Shown here piece after piece: positions 4,530 through 54,680 of a DNA stretch of 64,000 nt (positions are counted from its first letter, which is position 1; each line of letters begins with the position of its first letter). Made by a program: the position numbers and the translations under genes. The stretch comes from Haliscomenobacter hydrossis DSM 1100. Its GTDB lineage: Bacteria > Bacteroidota > Bacteroidia > Chitinophagales > Saprospiraceae. Below the pieces are notes generated by a model that saw only the letters and a list, made by a program, of their open reading frames with translations, did no database searches and had not been told where the DNA came from. The stretch spans positions 3,684,315 through 3,748,314 of the forward strand of contig NC_015510.1 of assembly GCF_000212735.1 (NCBI RefSeq), read 5' to 3'.

Positions 4530-4604
4530 GGGTGATTAGCTCAGCTGGTTTAGAGCATCTGCCTTACAAGCAGAGGGTCGGCGGTTCGAATCCGTCATTA
4601 CCCA
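4530..4604 (+). tRNA. tRNA-Val (anticodon TAC)
   Basis: Complete cloverleaf. The acceptor stem GGGTGAT pairs with ATTACCC. The D-arm begins GCTCAGCTGG, the anticodon stem TCTGC/GCAGA encloses the loop CTTACAA (anticodon TAC), and the T-arm has GGTTCGAATCC. The discriminator is A at 4604. CCA is not encoded, so it must be added by nucleotidyltransferase. Confidence 0.97.
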
Positions 4605-4767: not shown

Positions 4768-5085
4768 ATGGAGCTAGGAGAAATCTACATTTTGACTGAA
4801 GAAAGAACTGCTGTACTAGATGTGAAAAGTGACAAACCACAAAGAGTGAGCTTAATCGTGCAAGATAAACTGGGAACACCCTGTTTTGAGCAACAAATCA
4901 ATTTGGAAAAAGGCAGTCAAACCTTACAATTTCCGGTTGAGGGCCTAAAGCCTGGCAGTTATTTTGTGTGGTTGCATTATGGTAACCTTACTAAAATGGT
5001 ATCCTTTAAAGTGAACACGTCTAAACCCCTTAAACCTGAGCCTAAGAAAAACTTCTTGCTCAATGTCAAATTTTTTTCGTGGTAA
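4768..5085 (+). CDS. Hypothetical small beta-rich protein
   Basis: About 105 aa from the ATG at 4768. I recognise no family. Alternating hydrophobic/polar strands end in the pattern LKPGSYFVWLHYGN...VSFKV, which resembles the last strands of type IX C-terminal-domain-like or immunoglobulin-like sandwiches (compare 'LPAGMYFVRL' in the secreted protein ending at 14140). The frame is open back to an ATG at 4639, which would add a hydrophobic N-terminal anchor. That ATG, however, touches the tRNA terminator T-tract and the added DNA is promoter-like AT-rich sequence, so I prefer 4768. The C-terminus is lysine-rich. Confidence 0.55.
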   Translation: MELGEIYILTEERTAVLDVKSDKPQRVSLIVQDKLGTPCFEQQINLEKGSQTLQFPVEGLKPGSYFVWLHYGNLTKMVSFKVNTSKPLKPEPKKNFLLNVKFFSW

Positions 5086-5090
5086 TTTTT

Positions 5091-6116
5091 TTACCCTCCC
5101 TCGTTTTGTATACAATGTTCAAGGATCCTATTTGCGGGATCAAACCCTTCAAGTTCCCTCAATCCTAAATGTACAATAGCGATTTCAATCAAACGATCGA
5201 GCCCGGATTCGTTAGGGGCGAAGTAATGCCCGGCCTCCAGGAATACCCGGAGCGGGGCCAGTCCAATCAACTCTGATCCGGTAACTTCCACGCCCAAGTG
5301 TTGGGCTTCCTGCTGGCAAGCTACGAATGCCTCGTGGACTGGCGTAAGGTCTAGGTCGGTAATGTTCATCGATACTTGGGCTTTGCCATAGCTGGGCATG
5401 TACCAGCCAATGGCTTTTAAGCCGGGGCAACGCCCTGGTATCCGCTGGATGTTTCCCCGTTCGTCTTTAACCTTATGGCCACTGGCGCGTATTTTTTCAG
5501 CGATGCGCCTGGCCAGACTAACGTCGGTGGTATTCAAATTGACATTGTAGGCAATGAGGAACTTACGGGCACCAATGACCGTGGCCCCGGCAGGAAAAGC
5601 ACCCTGGTCCGGGCCGTAGTCAGGTGTCCATTCCGGCTGACGGATTTTTTGGGCCAAACCTTCGTATTCTCCCTGGCGGATCGTGGCCAAGTTGCGCCGT
5701 TGGGGGTCTTGGGCGGCATACTCGTACAAGTACACCGGAATATTCAGTTCAGTACCGACCCTTTGTCCTAACGTACGGGCCAGCACTACGGCCTCGTCGA
5801 TGGACATTCCGGCGATGGGCACCAGGGGGCAGACATCGGTAGCCCCCATGCGGGGATGGGCACCCAGTTGTTGGCGCATATCGATCAGTTGACTGGCGGT
5901 TTTGATGCTTTGAAACGCGGCTTCTACCACGGCCAAAGGCGCACCCACGAAGGTCATGACCGTTCGGTTGGCGTCGTAACCGGGATCTACGTGCAACAAT
6001 TTGACGCCGACAATTTGGCGAATTGCCGCCGCAATGGACTCGATGACGACCGGATTGCGTCCCTCACTAAAATTTGGTACGCACTCCAACAAGACTTGGT
6101 TATCGGTGGTGTTCAT
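5091..6116 (-). CDS. ftcD: Glutamate formimidoyltransferase
   Basis: Transfers the formimino group of N-formimino-L-glutamate to tetrahydrofolate, the last step of one histidine degradation route, in the cytoplasm. The family signature is clear: ECVPNFSEGR at the N-terminus, LHVDPGYDANRTVMTFVG, LGAHPRMGATDVCPLVP and NVNLNTTD. At about 341 aa it carries the formiminotransferase N and C subdomains only, without the cyclodeaminase domain of the bifunctional animal enzyme. The ATG at 6116 begins MNTTDNQ; an upstream TTG at 6152 is less likely. It is divergent from deoC across about 150 bp. Confidence 0.93.
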   Translation of the reverse strand: MNTTDNQVLLECVPNFSEGRNPVVIESIAAAIRQIVGVKLLHVDPGYDANRTVMTFVGAPLAVVEAAFQSIKTASQLIDMRQQLGAHPRMGATDVCPLVPIAGMSIDEAVVLARTLGQRVGTELNIPVYLYEYAAQDPQRRNLATIRQGEYEGLAQKIRQPEWTPDYGPDQGAFPAGATVIGARKFLIAYNVNLNTTDVSLARRIAEKIRASGHKVKDERGNIQRIPGRCPGLKAIGWYMPSYGKAQVSMNITDLDLTPVHEAFVACQQEAQHLGVEVTGSELIGLAPLRVFLEAGHYFAPNESGLDRLIEIAIVHLGLRELEGFDPANRILEHCIQNEGG

Positions 6117-16772: not shown

Positions 16773-18149
16773 TTATTTCCCAATACAGAACCTCGAAAAA
16801 ATATTGTCCAGCAAATCTTCCGTCGAAATCTCCCCGGTAATTTCGCCCAAATAGGCCAGCGAATGCCGGATGTCCATGGCAATAAAATCGGTGGTCACCG
16901 CGCTGCTCAAGCCTTGAATCACCGCCTCCAGGCTTTCTTTCGCCTTTTGCAAGGCCTCGTAATGCCGGACGTTGCTCACAATAGCCGCATCCATGCTCAC
17001 TTCATTGCTCACCACGGTTTGGTAGAGGCGTTCTTTGAGGTATTCGATGTTCATTTCATTGGCTGCCGAAATGGGAATCCATTGTTCGGCGCTGAAGTGG
17101 GGGTTGGCGTAGTGCTGGTATTCGGTGTAGGGGTTGAGGTCCATTTTGTTGGCCACCACCAGGAGTTGGGTATTGGGATGCAGCAGTTGGGCGAGGTCGG
17201 CTTCCAACTGGGCAGGCTGGGTCTTGATCACGTCAAAAATATAGAGGAGTACCGCGGATTGCCGCACTTTTTCCAGGGTTTTTTGGATTCCAATCGCCTC
17301 AATGGTATCCGAAGCTTCACGGATGCCCGCCGTGTCGATGATCCGAAACTGAATGCCCTGAATGTTGAGCGACTCCTCGATGGTATCCCGTGTAGTGCCC
17401 GCAATTTCGCTGACAATGGCGCGCTCTTCGTTGAGCAGGGCGTTGAGCAACGTTGATTTTCCAGCGTTGGGCCGCCCGGCGATAACCGTATTGACGCCCT
17501 CTTTGATGGCATTACCCAATTGGAAAGAGTCGAGCAATTTGTGCATCAGGCGGATCAGTTTTTCCACCAGATCCCGCAATTGATCACGATTGGCAAACTC
17601 CACGTCCTCCTCGCCAAAGTCCAGCTCCAATTCAATCAAACTGGCAAAATCGATCAGCTCCTGGCGCAGTTTTTTGATCTCGCTCGAAATCCCGCCCCGC
17701 AGTTGTTTGATGGCCACTTGTTGCGCAGCTTCGGAACTGGAGGCAATGAGGTCGGCCACCGCCTCGGCTTGCGAGAGGTCCATCTGCCCGTTGAGGAAGG
17801 CCCGCAAAGTGAATTCGCCTGGCTGCGCCAAACGGGCACCCTTCCGAATGAACAATCGAATCAACTCCTGGATGATGTAATTGGAGCCGTGGCAGGAGAT
17901 TTCTACTACATTTTCTCCCGTATAAGAGCGGGGTTCCACAAAAAGTGAAGCGAGAACTTCGTCCAAAATGTGATCTTGCTCATCCCGAATGGTGCCAAAA
18001 TGAATGGTATGGCTGGCTTGTTTGTCGAGTTTTTTGCCATAAAAAACGGCATCAACAATCTGAATGGCCTGTGGCCCAGACAAACGGATCACCCCAATGG
18101 CACCGATTCCGGGTGGGGTGGCGAGGGCAACGATGGTATCAGTGGGCAT
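16773..18149 (-). CDS. mnmE: tRNA modification GTPase MnmE
   Basis: With MnmG it installs the xm5U34 modification on wobble uridines. 458 aa from the ATG at 18149 (MPTDTIVALATPPG), close to the usual 454. The N-terminal folate-binding domain includes SCHGSNYI. The G domain has GRPNAGKST, the GTTRDTIEE switch, DTAGIRE and NKMD. The protein ends in the catalytic CxGK (FCIGK). The frame stays open upstream through a repeat and would add a low-complexity NPRTTNPRT segment; I reject that extension. The repeat starts directly at the base before the ATG. Confidence 0.96.
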   Translation of the reverse strand: MPTDTIVALATPPGIGAIGVIRLSGPQAIQIVDAVFYGKKLDKQASHTIHFGTIRDEQDHILDEVLASLFVEPRSYTGENVVEISCHGSNYIIQELIRLFIRKGARLAQPGEFTLRAFLNGQMDLSQAEAVADLIASSSEAAQQVAIKQLRGGISSEIKKLRQELIDFASLIELELDFGEEDVEFANRDQLRDLVEKLIRLMHKLLDSFQLGNAIKEGVNTVIAGRPNAGKSTLLNALLNEERAIVSEIAGTTRDTIEESLNIQGIQFRIIDTAGIREASDTIEAIGIQKTLEKVRQSAVLLYIFDVIKTQPAQLEADLAQLLHPNTQLLVVANKMDLNPYTEYQHYANPHFSAEQWIPISAANEMNIEYLKERLYQTVVSNEVSMDAAIVSNVRHYEALQKAKESLEAVIQGLSSAVTTDFIAMDIRHSLAYLGEITGEISTEDLLDNIFSRFCIGK

Positions 18150-18372
18150 GGTTCGAGGGTTTGAGGGTTCGAAGTTCGGGGGTTCGAGGGTTCGGGGGTT
18201 CGTCGTTCGGGGGTTCGTCGTTCGAGGGTTCGTCGTTCGAGGGTTCGGGGGTTCGTCGTTCGGGGGTTTGGGGTTCGAGGGTTCGTGGACCCTGAAGCGC
18301 AACGCTCCCAACCCTCGAACCTTCGAACTCACGAACCCCCGAACCCCCGAACCCCCGAACCCCCGAACCCTA
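18150..18372 (+). repeat. 223-bp G-rich stuttering hairpin (GGGGGTTCG units)
   Basis: The left side (18150-18285) is a run of GAGGGTTCG, GGGGGTTCG and GTCGTTC words. The right side (18300-18372) is the complementary series of CCCTCGAAC and CCCCCGAAC. It occupies the entire spacer between the HDAC-like gene stop and the mnmE start codon. Related smaller copies lie at 30946-31038, 32917-32992 and 50355-50443. Confidence 0.9.
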
Positions 18373-19335
18373 TTAGATTCTCCAATGACTTTTTAATTTC
18401 CCCAATGCGCCGTGCAAGTACATTTCGTACGTTTCCCACACGCGCATACCGGAGGTCGTACGTACTTCTTCACAAGGAGGAGGCAAATTCAGGCCGTTGA
18501 TGCCTGCTTCAAAAGCATAAACACATTTTTGCAGCTCAGGGATGTTGTACCCCCCTTCCAAGACGGCAAAAACATGGGCAAAATTTTCGCTGAGCAACTG
18601 GCCAATGCGGTAATAGGTATTGGTGGTTACCTTTAAATCCAGCAACAAGTCGTATTGGTGCGCGTCAAAACCAGCGGACACTGCAACAATATCGGGTTGA
18701 AACTGCTCGGCGATGGGCATAAAGTGTCCTACTGCATCCAAAAAAATATCGTCGGCACTACCGGGTGGCAAGGGCATATTGAGGGTATACCCCAAGCCTT
18801 CACCTGCACCCAGTTCATTGACAAAACCGTGTCCAGGAAATGCCGGATATTGATGCATTGACCAGTACATCACCTGATTGGAGCCGTAAAATATATCCGA
18901 CGTGCCATCGCCCAAATGGCCATCAAAATCAAAAATGAGCACTTTTTTCCCTTCATTCACCGCGAGTTGGGCGGCGATGGCCACATTGTTGAACAAACAA
19001 AAACCACTGGCCCGATCGCGGTAAGCATGGTGACCGGGTGGCCGCACCAGCGCAAAATCCTGGTTGCGCATGGCCTGGATGGTCGCGCCTACGGCATGAC
19101 AGGCGGCCATAAAACTTCCTTCCGAAACGACGGTGTCTTCGTCCAAATGCCCACCAAGGTGTGAGGTTTCACGTACTTGTTGGATGTATGTTGGATCGTG
19201 TATCAACTCCAGATAGGGTTCCCCATCTAAAAAAACGGTTTCCGGAATGTCGGAAAACACCTCCAGTCGCTTCTTATTTTCTGGATGCATTCCCGTATCG
19301 TGGCGTTGGCAAACGCTGTTGTACAATAGTTTCAT
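18373..19335 (-). CDS. Histone deacetylase-family (class II-like) amidohydrolase
   Basis: 320-aa Zn-dependent deacetylase of the arginase/HDAC fold; bacterial members act on acetylpolyamines, acetoin-type or acylated small molecules, so the substrate here is unknown. Conserved positions: MHPENKKRL near the N-terminus, paired His in RPPGHHA, metal ligands in FDFDGHLGDGT and SAGFDAH, and Tyr in LEGGYN. The second His of the usual HHGDG is Leu, as in several bacterial members. ATG at 19335. Its stop touches the large GTTCG hairpin. Confidence 0.92.
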   Translation of the reverse strand: MKLLYNSVCQRHDTGMHPENKKRLEVFSDIPETVFLDGEPYLELIHDPTYIQQVRETSHLGGHLDEDTVVSEGSFMAACHAVGATIQAMRNQDFALVRPPGHHAYRDRASGFCLFNNVAIAAQLAVNEGKKVLIFDFDGHLGDGTSDIFYGSNQVMYWSMHQYPAFPGHGFVNELGAGEGLGYTLNMPLPPGSADDIFLDAVGHFMPIAEQFQPDIVAVSAGFDAHQYDLLLDLKVTTNTYYRIGQLLSENFAHVFAVLEGGYNIPELQKCVYAFEAGINGLNLPPPCEEVRTTSGMRVWETYEMYLHGALGKLKSHWRI

Positions 19336-29245: not shown

Positions 29246-29340
29246 GGTTGAGAAGGTTGAGAAGTTGAGGCTACCGCAGCGACTTAGACAAAAGTTACTG
29301 CGGCAGCCTCAACCTTCTCAACTTTTCAACCTCCTCAACT
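29246..29340 (+). repeat. GTTGAGAAG-type hairpin between DUF1800 and DUF1501
   Basis: The left arm GGTTGAGAAG...GAGGCTACCGCAG and right arm CTGCGGCAGCCTCAACC...CTCCTCAACT are complementary. It occupies nearly the whole 114-bp spacer within an operon. Same core (GAGGCTrCCGCA) as 36341-36504 and 41548-41665. Confidence 0.85.
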
Positions 29341-30945: not shown

Positions 30946-31038
30946 GTTCGGGGGTTCGGGAGTTAATCGGTCGCCGAGCGATGGTTACTGAGCGTAGCCG
31001 AAGTAAGCCGAGGTGCTGATTAGCTCCCGAACCTTCGA
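30946..31038 (+). repeat. GTTCG-type hairpin with CACTGAGCG-like inner sequence
   Basis: The outer arms GTTCGGGAG-TTAATC and GATTAGCTCCCGAAC pair. The inner stretch GGTTACTGAGCGTAGCCGAAGTAAGCC resembles the loop of the hairpin at 33734-33800, so two hairpin families are combined here. Confidence 0.75.
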
Positions 31039-32916: not shown

Positions 32917-32992
32917 ATCGCTCGTGGATTCGAGACTCAAAGGATTAGACCTCCCCCAACTCCCGAACCCACGAACCTTCGAACCCTAAAAA
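32917..32992 (+). repeat. Degenerate GTTCG-type hairpin
   Basis: The right side CTCCCGAACCCACGAACCTTCGAACCC is clear. The left arm (CTCGTGGATTCGAGACTC) pairs poorly with it. It lies between the putative immunity gene and the convergent barrel gene. Confidence 0.5.
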
Positions 32993-36340: not shown

Positions 36341-36504
36341 AGTTGAGAAAGTTGAGAAGTTGAGAAGGTTGAGGCTGCCGCAAGCAATTTTGACCATCAT
36401 CAATATTCTCAACTTTCTAAGCCCTGACTTGATTGTTAAATCTTTAAGCGGTACAAGTCACTCGCGGTAGCCTCAACCTCCTCAACTTCTCAACCTCCTC
36501 AACT
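36341..36504 (+). repeat. GTTGAGAAG-type hairpin between convergent tatA and DUF6029 genes
   Basis: The left arm 36341-36384 (GTTGAGAAAGTTGAGAAG...GGCTGCCGCAAG) pairs with the right arm 36463-36504 (GCGGTAGCCTCAACCTCC...CCTCAACT). The loop is about 80 bp. Same core as 29246-29340 and 41548-41665. Confidence 0.85.
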
Positions 36505-41547: not shown

Positions 41548-41665
41548 AAAAGTTGAGGGGTTGAGGAGGTTGAGAAGTTGAGAAGGTTGAGGCTACCGCA
41601 AGCGACATAGTCACTAAGGCGTAAAATCCACTCAACCTTCTCAACTTCTCAACCTCCTCAACTAA
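41548..41665 (+). repeat. GTTGAGAAG-type hairpin upstream of the M16 gene
   Basis: The left arm AGTTGAGGGGTTGAGGAGG...GGCTACCGCAAGCGA and right arm CTCAACCTTCTCAAC...CTCCTCAACT are complementary. It fills the 124-bp spacer up to a few bases from the M16 start codon and the upstream gene's stop. Confidence 0.88.
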
Positions 41666-41666
41666 A

Positions 41667-41939
41667 TTAAAACCAATCCTTAAAACGCTCTTTCAAGGCA
41701 TTCATGCCGTTGATGGCTTTCTCTTTCAGTTCGCCGAACTCTTCGCTGGCTTCAGCGCCCAATTCTTCGAGTTTTTCGCCGAGGTTTGTGGTGGCACCTT
41801 TCAAAAATTCAATTTGCTCCTGAATTTCTTCTTTGGCTTCGGCGGCACCTTCTTTGGCCATTTCGGTCAGTTGGGCCAGTTTTTCCTGGGCTTTTTCTTT
41901 GGCTGCGACCAGTTGTTCTTTCAATTGTTCCTTGTCCAT
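41667..41939 (-). CDS. Small coiled-coil protein
   Basis: About 90 aa, nearly all Glu/Lys/Ala: an amphipathic helix with heptads (QLVAAKEKAQEKLAQLTEMAK, then LGEKLEELGAEASEEFGELKEKA). No signal peptide or membrane segment from the ATG at 41939, which sits in AAGGAACAATTG-type context. It resembles LEA-like or YtxH-type stress proteins, but there is no diagnostic motif. An upstream extension to 42044 is AT-rich and unlike it. Confidence 0.7.
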   Translation of the reverse strand: MDKEQLKEQLVAAKEKAQEKLAQLTEMAKEGAAEAKEEIQEQIEFLKGATTNLGEKLEELGAEASEEFGELKEKAINGMNALKERFKDWF

Positions 41940-50354: not shown

Positions 50355-50443
50355 TGGAGGAGGGTTCGGGGGTTTGAGGGTTTGAGGGTTCGGGGGTTCG
50401 GGGCCATAAACCCTCGAACCCCGAACCCTCGAACCTTCAAACC
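50355..50443 (+). repeat. GTTCG-type hairpin between purS and rsmI
   Basis: The left side GGGTTCGGGGGTTTGAGGG..GGGTTCGGGG and right side CCCTCGAACCCCGAACCCTCGAACC pair around a short loop. It fills the 90-bp spacer exactly between the two minus-strand genes. Confidence 0.88.
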
Positions 50444-54540: not shown

Positions 54541-54674
54541 AAGTTGAAAAGTTGAAGGTTGAAAAGTTGAAAAGTTGTGCGTAGTGCAAGATTTGCGATC
54601 TTTGCAAAAAACTTTCAAACTCACAAACTTTTGAACTTCTTTTCAACTTTTCAACCCTTAACTTTTCAACTTTC
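54541..54674 (+). repeat. GTTGAAAAG-type hairpin between the adhesin gene and lptC
   Basis: The left side repeats AAGTTGAAAAGTTGAAGG; the right side repeats CTTTTCAACTTTTCAACCC. The loop (54578-54611) contains a promoter-like box. It fills the 141-bp spacer. Confidence 0.82.
54575..54604 (+). promoter_or_regulatory. Candidate lptC promoter inside the hairpin loop
   Basis: TTG at 54575, 19-bp spacer, GATCTTTG at 54597 (one mismatch to TAnnTTTG). The ATG is 76 bp further on, after the right hairpin arm. Confidence 0.4.
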
Positions 54675-54680
54675 TTCAAT

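Follow-up and report, generated by a model that had tools for sequence, protein, structure and literature searches.

Haliscomenobacter hydrossis carries, throughout its genome, a class of intergenic hairpins whose arms are tandem arrays of a short word on one side and of its complement on the other, and one of them fills the spacer between an HDAC-domain gene and mnmE. We give a probability of about 0.5 to the reading that these are dispersed non-coding hairpins of a REP- or MITE-like kind, whose arms would slip and be re-copied onto each other by template switching. The observations beneath this explanation are the class itself, its location, its presence or absence at given junctions, a whole-unit and concerted change of both arms at one inherited locus, and core flanks that are specific to each copy.

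When the window (the whole 64,000-nt stretch of DNA that was analysed) was read, positions 18150-18372 resolved into an array of 16 GTTCG units and one of 7 CGAAC units on either side of a loop (Table 1). The original prediction that a stuttering hairpin fills this spacer from the mnmE ATG to the HDAC-like stop was confirmed by the sequence and by the domains of both genes: mnmE starts at 18149 on the minus strand, and the HDAC-domain gene, also on the minus strand, ends with the stop codon 18375-18373. Likewise, the arms proved to be tandem short words on one side and their complements on the other (GTTCG x16, CGAAC x7). The left arm (18150-18288) is written in the words GGGTTCG, GAGGGTTCG and GTCGTTCG, and its 16 units follow each other at a spacing of 7 or 8, plus single steps of 15 and 16. 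With about 139 nt on the left and about 61 nt on the right the arms are unequal, and full-length pairing is therefore impossible. By eye, the loop (18289-18309) resembles those of other GTTCG elements, e.g. at L074:4937, L090:5044 and L105:281. For the mnmE-sense strand, the predicted RNA energy was -126.8 kcal/mol, compared with -90.3 ± 12.4 in 100 first-order Markov resamples. For mnmE, the insertion would probably mean that the 3-bp spacer found in two relatives is lost and that the leader carries a very stable hairpin which extends to the AUG. None of the hairpins in the window matched Rfam at the gathering threshold, the sole match in the 64 kb being a tRNA at 4530-4604, and the HDAC-mnmE element had no match in a set of plasmid records from which those near the H. 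hydrossis genome may be absent.

The three relatives predicted at 30946, 32917 and 50355 fared differently. A true hairpin was found at 50355 (50364-50442) and by eye a short one at 30946, whereas at 32917 only the C-rich arm is clear. In addition, four hairpins with GTTGA words that had not been listed are present in the window, at 29247-29339, 36342-36503, 41552-41662 and 54541-54679.

Table 1 Features of the window and junctions compared between H. hydrossis (named first) and its relative G101
Feature	Position	Strand	Basis
mnmE; ATG directly abuts hairpin	16773..18149	-	Pfam TrmE_N + MnmE_helical
G-rich stutter arm, 16 GTTCG units, spacing mostly 7-8	18150..18288	+	sequence and unit count
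Loop with GAAGCGCAACGCTCC core	18289..18309	+	sequence
C-rich stutter arm, complementary CGAACCC words, 7 CGAAC units, spacing 8	18310..18370	+	sequence and unit count
HDAC-domain gene; stop TAA directly abuts hairpin	18373..19335	-	PF00850
GTTGAG stutter hairpin, GCTACCGC core, between codirectional genes	29247..29339	+	word finder
Short GTTCG hairpin around REP-like core; below threshold of GTTCG hairpin search	30946..31038	+	by eye
Largely one-armed (C-rich) remnant of GTTCG hairpin, left arm degraded	32917..32987	+	by eye
GTTGAG stutter hairpin, GCTGCCGC core, between convergent genes	36342..36503	+	word finder
GTTGAG stutter hairpin, 4 bp from stop codon of minus-strand gene ending at 41667	41552..41662	+	word finder
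GTTCG stutter hairpin, 90-bp gap between codirectional genes (50353, 50444)	50364..50442	+	word finder
GTTGAA stutter hairpin filling spacer, stop (54539) to next ATG (54681)	54541..54679	+	word finder
Junction: GTTCG vs GTTCCA	L064		
Junction: GTGAAAA vs GTTCCA	L115:7019		
Junction: GTTGAAAA with REP-like core vs GTTGAG	L146:611		
Junction: TTTTAGG hairpin vs GTGAAAA	L150:2586		
Junction: wordless palindrome vs GTGAAAA	L143:3667		
Junction: GTTGAG in both, loops differ	L153:1830		
Junction: GTTCG vs short degraded stretch	L115:10468		
Junction: GTTGAG vs nothing	L115:13492		
Junction: near-empty site vs GTTGAG	L143:7836		

According to the available text of its description (PMC3156403), the type strain has a genome of 8,771,651 bp, of which the chromosome accounts for 8,371,686 bp. 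The word GGGTTCGNGGGTTCG occurs 622 times in it (299 + 323), and its reversed control 0 times. In a sample of 100 evenly spaced 20-kb tiles (2.0 Mb, including 7,023 N) together with the window, GGGTTCG/CGAACCC formed 290 clusters, 215 of them single words and 75 with two or more. The multi-word clusters had the strand order +- in 52 cases, - in 10, + in 7, -+ in 5 and -+- in one; as 52 stand in the order +- and 5 in the order -+, the G-rich arm comes first. A word-blind finder, which requires a 5-mer recurring every 6-10 bp and then its reverse complement, with at least 6 units in all, returned 138 hairpins in the 2.0 Mb; a single first-order Markov resample of these tiles yielded none. The reversed-sequence control (138 and 138) was uninformative, because a reversed hairpin is still a hairpin.

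The word-blind hairpins joined with the GTTCG set from tiles and window gave 152 elements. Their left-arm words were GTTCG (55), GTTGAG (31), GTGAAAA/GCGAAAA (12), GTTGAA (11), CACGACG (11), GTTGAT (7), CGCAGAT (7), CGCGGAT (7), CACAGAT (4), AACGGA (2) and others (5); the hairpins of H. hydrossis thus use at least ten words, many of them not G-rich. In 142 of the 152 elements the outer arms were more than half purine on the left-arm strand. Extrapolated from 150 elements in 2.0 Mb, the total for the chromosome would be about 630. BLAST gave at least 122 matches to a GTTCG-type element, all on the chromosome, with 40 of 285 first-look candidates scored, and one match to the 8-nt GTTGAG form lay on contig C2. 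The suggestion that G-rich structures could form may apply to part of the GTTCG family, in which 23 of 56 elements contain a G4 motif; since the G-rich word is one of at least ten, such structure is not a common feature of the class. Several arrays depart from the symmetric form: a one-armed array of 12 GTTCG at L078:5231-5326 has a single CGAAC in the surrounding 870 bp (5001-5870), a GTTCG hairpin at L125:16021-16249 is very unequal, with 2 units on the left and 24 on the right, and long TCGCTAT arrays of 10 and 14 units at L106:2310-2440 and L111:6355-6525 have a short partner arm.

With respect to genes, which were called by a simple codon model built for this analysis (74% coding), one of the 152 elements lies inside a called gene, 46 overlap a gene by up to 30 bp and two by more; given such simple calls and these overlaps, single boundaries may be off. 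The 143 elements with two neighbours were placed between codirectional genes in 110 cases, convergent genes in 20 and divergent genes in 13, compared with 641, 148 and 187 background gaps of at least 20 bp, i.e. a codirectional excess (p 0.008) and a divergent deficit (p 0.002). The stop-side edge was at most 10 bp from the stop codon in 94 of 150 elements, and the start-side edge at most 10 bp from the start in 31 of 136. Of the 110 elements at codirectional junctions, 86 lay closer to the stop and 23 closer to the start (Wilcoxon p 7e-9). The check that had been called for, made here with 622 words in the genome and with the intergenic position of the tile and window hairpins near gene ends, therefore bears out a defined element class, which is neither restricted to the window nor scattered at random inside genes. 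A T-run directly behind the stem was searched for in 110 hairpins; the mean was 3.3 T per 12 nt downstream vs 4.2 on the other side, with 7 or more T in 9 of 110, and an intrinsic terminator was rejected on this ground.

Five genomes of the genus were compared, H. hydrossis and the relatives G100, G101, G102 and G018. In four of them HDAC and mnmE are adjacent; G018 has a different neighbour. Between the two genes lies a GTTCG hairpin in H. hydrossis and one of GTTCCA words in G101, and in G100 and G102 a gap of 3 bp, the G100 spacer having been read on L186, apparently the same contig as L179. Further junctions shared with G101 are listed in Table 1; a match between L119 and L139 was set aside as it lies inside nested repeats. 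When 35 syntenic junctions of H. hydrossis and G101 were scored for palindromes at a score of 18, both species were occupied at 7, H. hydrossis only at 6, G101 only at 3 and neither at 19 (Fisher p 0.02); at a score of 22 the counts were 5/7/4/19 (p 0.22). Word detection alone, at 31 junctions of the same pair, gave 2 with both, 3 with H. hydrossis only, 3 with G101 only and 23 with neither. The 4 junctions syntenic with G102 comprised 2 occupied in H. hydrossis only, 1 in G102 only and 1 in neither, and the 7 syntenic with G018 comprised 1 in H. hydrossis only and 6 in neither. A strong co-occupancy of junctions by different words was rejected, as it is weakly above chance and threshold-dependent at the 35 junctions; nor did we press it, because 14 of the 20 G101 stretches had been picked by word matches.

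Exact GTTC stutters numbered 573 in H. hydrossis, 106 in G101, 6 in G102 and 0 in both G100 and G018. The 9-nt GTTGAG form was counted 121 times in H. hydrossis, 130 in G100, 145 in G101, 8 in G102 and 0 in G018, and the 8-nt form 48, 234, 60, 197 and 104 times, respectively. The reversed sequence used as control for the 8-nt form again spells a stutter of that word, and the non-zero counts it gave therefore do not serve as a null. For the 9-nt and 8-nt forms, the ratios of 145:60 in G101 and 8:197 in G102 differ with a Fisher p of 3e-50, calculated on sites that are not independent, and the difference may partly reflect gain and loss of subfamilies, since both forms coexist in H. hydrossis, G100 and G101.

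Loops recur among the elements. Of 56 GTTCG elements judged by eye, about 12 had a REP-like core, about 9 a ATTGTGTG-like and about 8 a GCGTTGCGC-like loop, the HDAC-mnmE element belonging to the last group; under a strict pattern the counts in 55 GTTCG-armed elements were 6, 7 and 5, and 37 matched none. The REP-like core was also found in 3 GTTGAA, 1 GTTGAG and 1 other element, and a GCTACCGC core in 29 of the 31 GTTGAG elements. Altogether, tiles and window contained 19 copies of the REP-like core GGTCGCCGAGCGGAGCCGAGGTG (with variants). The flanks of this core are complementary within a copy (mean 11.5 of 14) vs 4.1 between copies; complementarity reached at least 8 in 18 of the 19, and the observed sum was reached in 0 of 5000 permutations. 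The one failing copy lies in L108 side by side with another copy. Such copy-specific complementary flanks would not be expected from simple insertion of the core into an unpaired loop, and would be expected from copying of one side onto the other.

Permutation of right arms was used to compare the arms themselves. In the GTTCG family 2 of 2000 permutations reached the observed sum, a small effect (0.66 vs 0.62), and an element's own partner arm had a median rank of 25.5 among 55 others. The pooled GTTGA elements gave 0 of 2000; by subfamily the result was 4 of 5000 for GTTGAG-core and 92 of 5000 for GTTGAA, and GTTGAT showed no arm match (2144 of 5000). Palindromes are also nested: CGCGGAT hairpins at L122:8249-8463 and L137:15437-15637 have loops with CACAAAG-like words in both orientations, and a GTTCG hairpin at L059:868-1445 encloses a loop of about 500 bp with, by eye, seemingly concentric palindromes of other families.

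The sister species G101 and G102 share 90-95% identity over four blocks that total about 10 kb. Upstream of HDAC they have in common a GTTGAG element which H. hydrossis is without. Its flanks are identical at 145/150 and 146/150 positions and its core at 74/80, the left arm at 31/41 (8 gap columns) and the right arm at 35/46 (10 gap columns). The unit spacing, left/right, is 8,8,8,8/8,10,8,8 in G102 and 9,10,9/9,9,9 in G101. The left arm scored 64.5 (G102) and 58.0 (G101) against the right arm of its own species, and 54.5 and 46.0 against that of the other species; between species, the scores were 54.5 for left-left and 60.0 for right-right. The G101 right arm breaks the pattern: its match to the G102 counterpart (60.0) slightly exceeds that to the left arm of its own species (58.0). 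This is the one locus with a concerted unit-length change of both arms, and it suggests that one arm was copied onto the other, since both changed together at one spot. Thus, the original idea that arms grow by slippage while keeping complementarity gains support from one inherited element in G101 and G102, from the copy-specific flanks and from the arm permutations, with the small effect in GTTCG.

Other inherited elements are more varied. A CTTAGG element behind mnmE has CTTCGG/CCGAAG in G101 vs CTTCAG/CTGAAG in G102, i.e. one two-sided change, with arm scores of 64.0 and 52.5 within and 58.0 and 52.5 across species. One element (element A, L148) occurs in both G101 and G100, and G102 has a clean gap in its place; G101 and G100 agree at 39/42 positions of its left arm, 38/41 of the core and 47/47 of the right arm, and by eye the bases in which the G101 left arm departs from G100 cost it some pairing, the right arm being unchanged. 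Another (element B) is common to G101 and G102, with 8-nt right-arm units in both and no shift. In G100, by eye, its outer units persist around a different palindrome, which has a REP-like apex and is joined to them by complementary stretches.

Several known systems resemble these hairpins in part. The close precedent is found in Xanthomonas, where inverted heptad pairs are the same kind of structure with one word. As far as the available text of that study extends (PMC4692102), two species have 186 and 183 GGGAATC arrays with 70 and 75 inverted pairs, which are mostly intergenic, nearer the 5' gene (28 vs 160 nt) and rare between divergent genes; array length varies between species, and 83% of sites are also present in the other of the two species. 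GGGGA(C/T)T arrays are given there for Nostoc. The GTTCG family shares with the Xanthomonas arrays the tandem, species-typical G-rich short words, the intergenic position and, in part, the inverted pairs. In contrast to the 7-nt, G4-capable GGGANTN word described there, H. hydrossis has at least ten words with a spacing of 7-10 nt, many of them not G-rich; its apex cores recur, relatives have another word or an empty site at some of the junctions, and at one locus the arms changed in concert. REPINs are likewise extragenic hairpins made of two inverted arms and a spacer, with compensatory changes described in the hairpin (available parts of PMC3116915 and PMC3733652); their arms have one conserved sequence, unlike the variable tandem arrays found here. 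The view that stuttering arms set these elements apart from REP/BIME therefore stands for the arms, conserved in REPs and variable here, and has to give way where inverted G-rich heptad pairs are concerned, since these had already been described in Xanthomonas (PMC4692102). TAACTGA heptamers, known from Beggiatoaceae, Cyanobacteria and Bacteroidetes, are also tandem short words between genes; in contrast to the hairpins, they are repeated directly and lie close to start codons, the main genome having 169 direct sets against a single indirect repeat (available text of PMC4679880). Quasipalindrome template-switch mutation is itself a known process (PMC3820800, available text). Six word strings from these hairpins were not found in the literature searched, a scope outside which many subscription papers fall, and none of the titles and abstract openings examined described a single genome whose hairpins use many words.

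No REP-associated transposase had been visible in the sequence originally inspected; the H. hydrossis genome does contain RAYT-like genes (7 matches to PF01797, one with an internal stop), and none of the 7 loci has a word hairpin within 1.5 kb. A RAYT-borne REPIN was accordingly rejected, the arms moreover not being conserved. Several RAYT-like genes in L031-L036 are flanked, by eye, by other palindromes of the CCTCTCCGAGGTCG, CCCCGAAGGGGTGACATGATTATAG and CCACGACTTCAGTCGTGGG types. Like a MITE, the elements have terminal inverted repeats, which here are the arms themselves. In 56 GTTCG elements, a search for target-site duplication gave a common stretch of 3.38 within vs 3.44 between elements, and 6 or more in 1.8% vs 4.5%; a MITE with target duplication was thus rejected for the GTTCG family.

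Under the reading we favour, a hairpin with an apex core and short arms would settle directly downstream of a gene's stop codon, would be present or absent per junction between species and would often have its apex core in common with other copies. The arms are arrays of 7-9 nt words, in which whole units would be gained and lost through replication slippage. Where the hairpin forms in single-stranded DNA, a strand-switching polymerase may copy one arm onto the other in a quasipalindrome template switch; complementarity would then survive while words drift, so that both arms change together and lineages end with words of their own. The co-change of arms, the copy-specific flanks and the replacement of an inner part with pairing kept fit template switching inside the hairpin. 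Against this reading count the small arm match within GTTCG elements and its absence in GTTGAT, the G101 right arm at the concerted locus, the one-sided loss of pairing in element A, the unshifted element B, the one failing REP-like copy, the coexistence of 8- and 9-nt forms, and a concerted locus and a two-sided CTTAGG change that were each seen once, together with the negative results for target duplication in the GTTCG family and for hairpins at the 7 RAYT-like loci. To our knowledge, quasipalindrome template switching is known as a mutation process and not as the shaper of a dispersed repeat class. A doubtful extension of this scheme, which we would not expect to hold, is that arms form a genome-wide population evolving in concert, words being copied also between dispersed hairpins by conversion or a diffusible template. 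It is prompted by the 145:60 and 8:197 ratios of GTTGAG forms in G101 and G102 together with the element upstream of HDAC, whose arms in each species both show the form commoner in that genome, and its probability is lowered by element B, which shows no shift.

Transposition of whole elements, in which a putative transposase copies complete hairpins, is the next candidate and appears rather unlikely. Arm likeness would then stem from a common parent and species-specific words from bursts of founder subfamilies, which suits the loops common to copies and species, the clean presence or absence at junctions, the nested palindromes and the sharply differing GTTC stutter counts (573, 106, 6, 0 and 0); it sits poorly with the missing target duplication (3.38 vs 3.44), with 0 of 7 RAYT-like loci carrying a hairpin, with REP-core flanks that differ between copies yet are complementary, and with the one inherited element whose arms changed in concert and far more than its core. 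Selection for an RNA structure at gene 3' ends, i.e. a terminator, mRNA stabiliser or ribosome-stalling hairpin whose pairing is restored by compensatory mutation, we consider distinctly less probable still. The elements do hug stop codons and avoid divergent gaps, the CTTAGG element has one two-sided change, and E. coli REPs near stop codons are reported to stall ribosomes; against this, the stem is not followed by a T-run (3.3 vs 4.2 T per 12 nt, n=110), relatives lack a hairpin at some of the junctions, each species may use a word of its own and no hairpin of the window matched Rfam at the gathering threshold. That plain simple-sequence arrays merely lie near each other in opposite orientation by chance is largely refuted and hardly credible: one-armed or very unequal arrays exist (12 GTTCG with one CGAAC at L078, 2 vs 24 units at L125:16021), as do 17 same-strand clusters, but the order +- (52) vs -+ (5), the similar loops in several copies and the 0 word-blind hairpins of the Markov control contradict it.

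The hairpins offer a natural record of arms rewritten in pairs, at many sites per genome and at comparable sites in sister species. If the favoured reading is true, one could measure directly how often templates switch within hairpins and how intergenic repeats turn over next to stop codons. The comparison also suggests that inverted word arrays of the Xanthomonas type are an instance of a broader architecture whose word can be exchanged.

Outside the genus comparison, GGGTTCGNGGGTTCG was present in 1 of 100 genomes of a family sample, that of H. hydrossis itself. Of 298 genomes of the order, 9 contained GTTC stutters; apart from H. hydrossis and G101, these were seven genomes with 1-3 each. 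Named mnmE loci of the best 80 of 579 relatives (1.17 Mb; mostly Saprospiraceae, with Mucilaginibacter and others) contained 9 such hairpins in 6 loci, with other words, and the control 0. In the phylum, CACAGATTNACACAGATT was found in 16 of 395 genomes, 76 times in H. hydrossis and 1-5 times in the others (reversed control 0). The word CACAGATT recurs across several families of the phylum (16 of 395 genomes), a distribution that suggests either transfer of the word or its repeated origin. In G018 (L182), two ACTTACGACTTACGA words follow the HDAC-like gene, perhaps representing another word family in this most distant congener.
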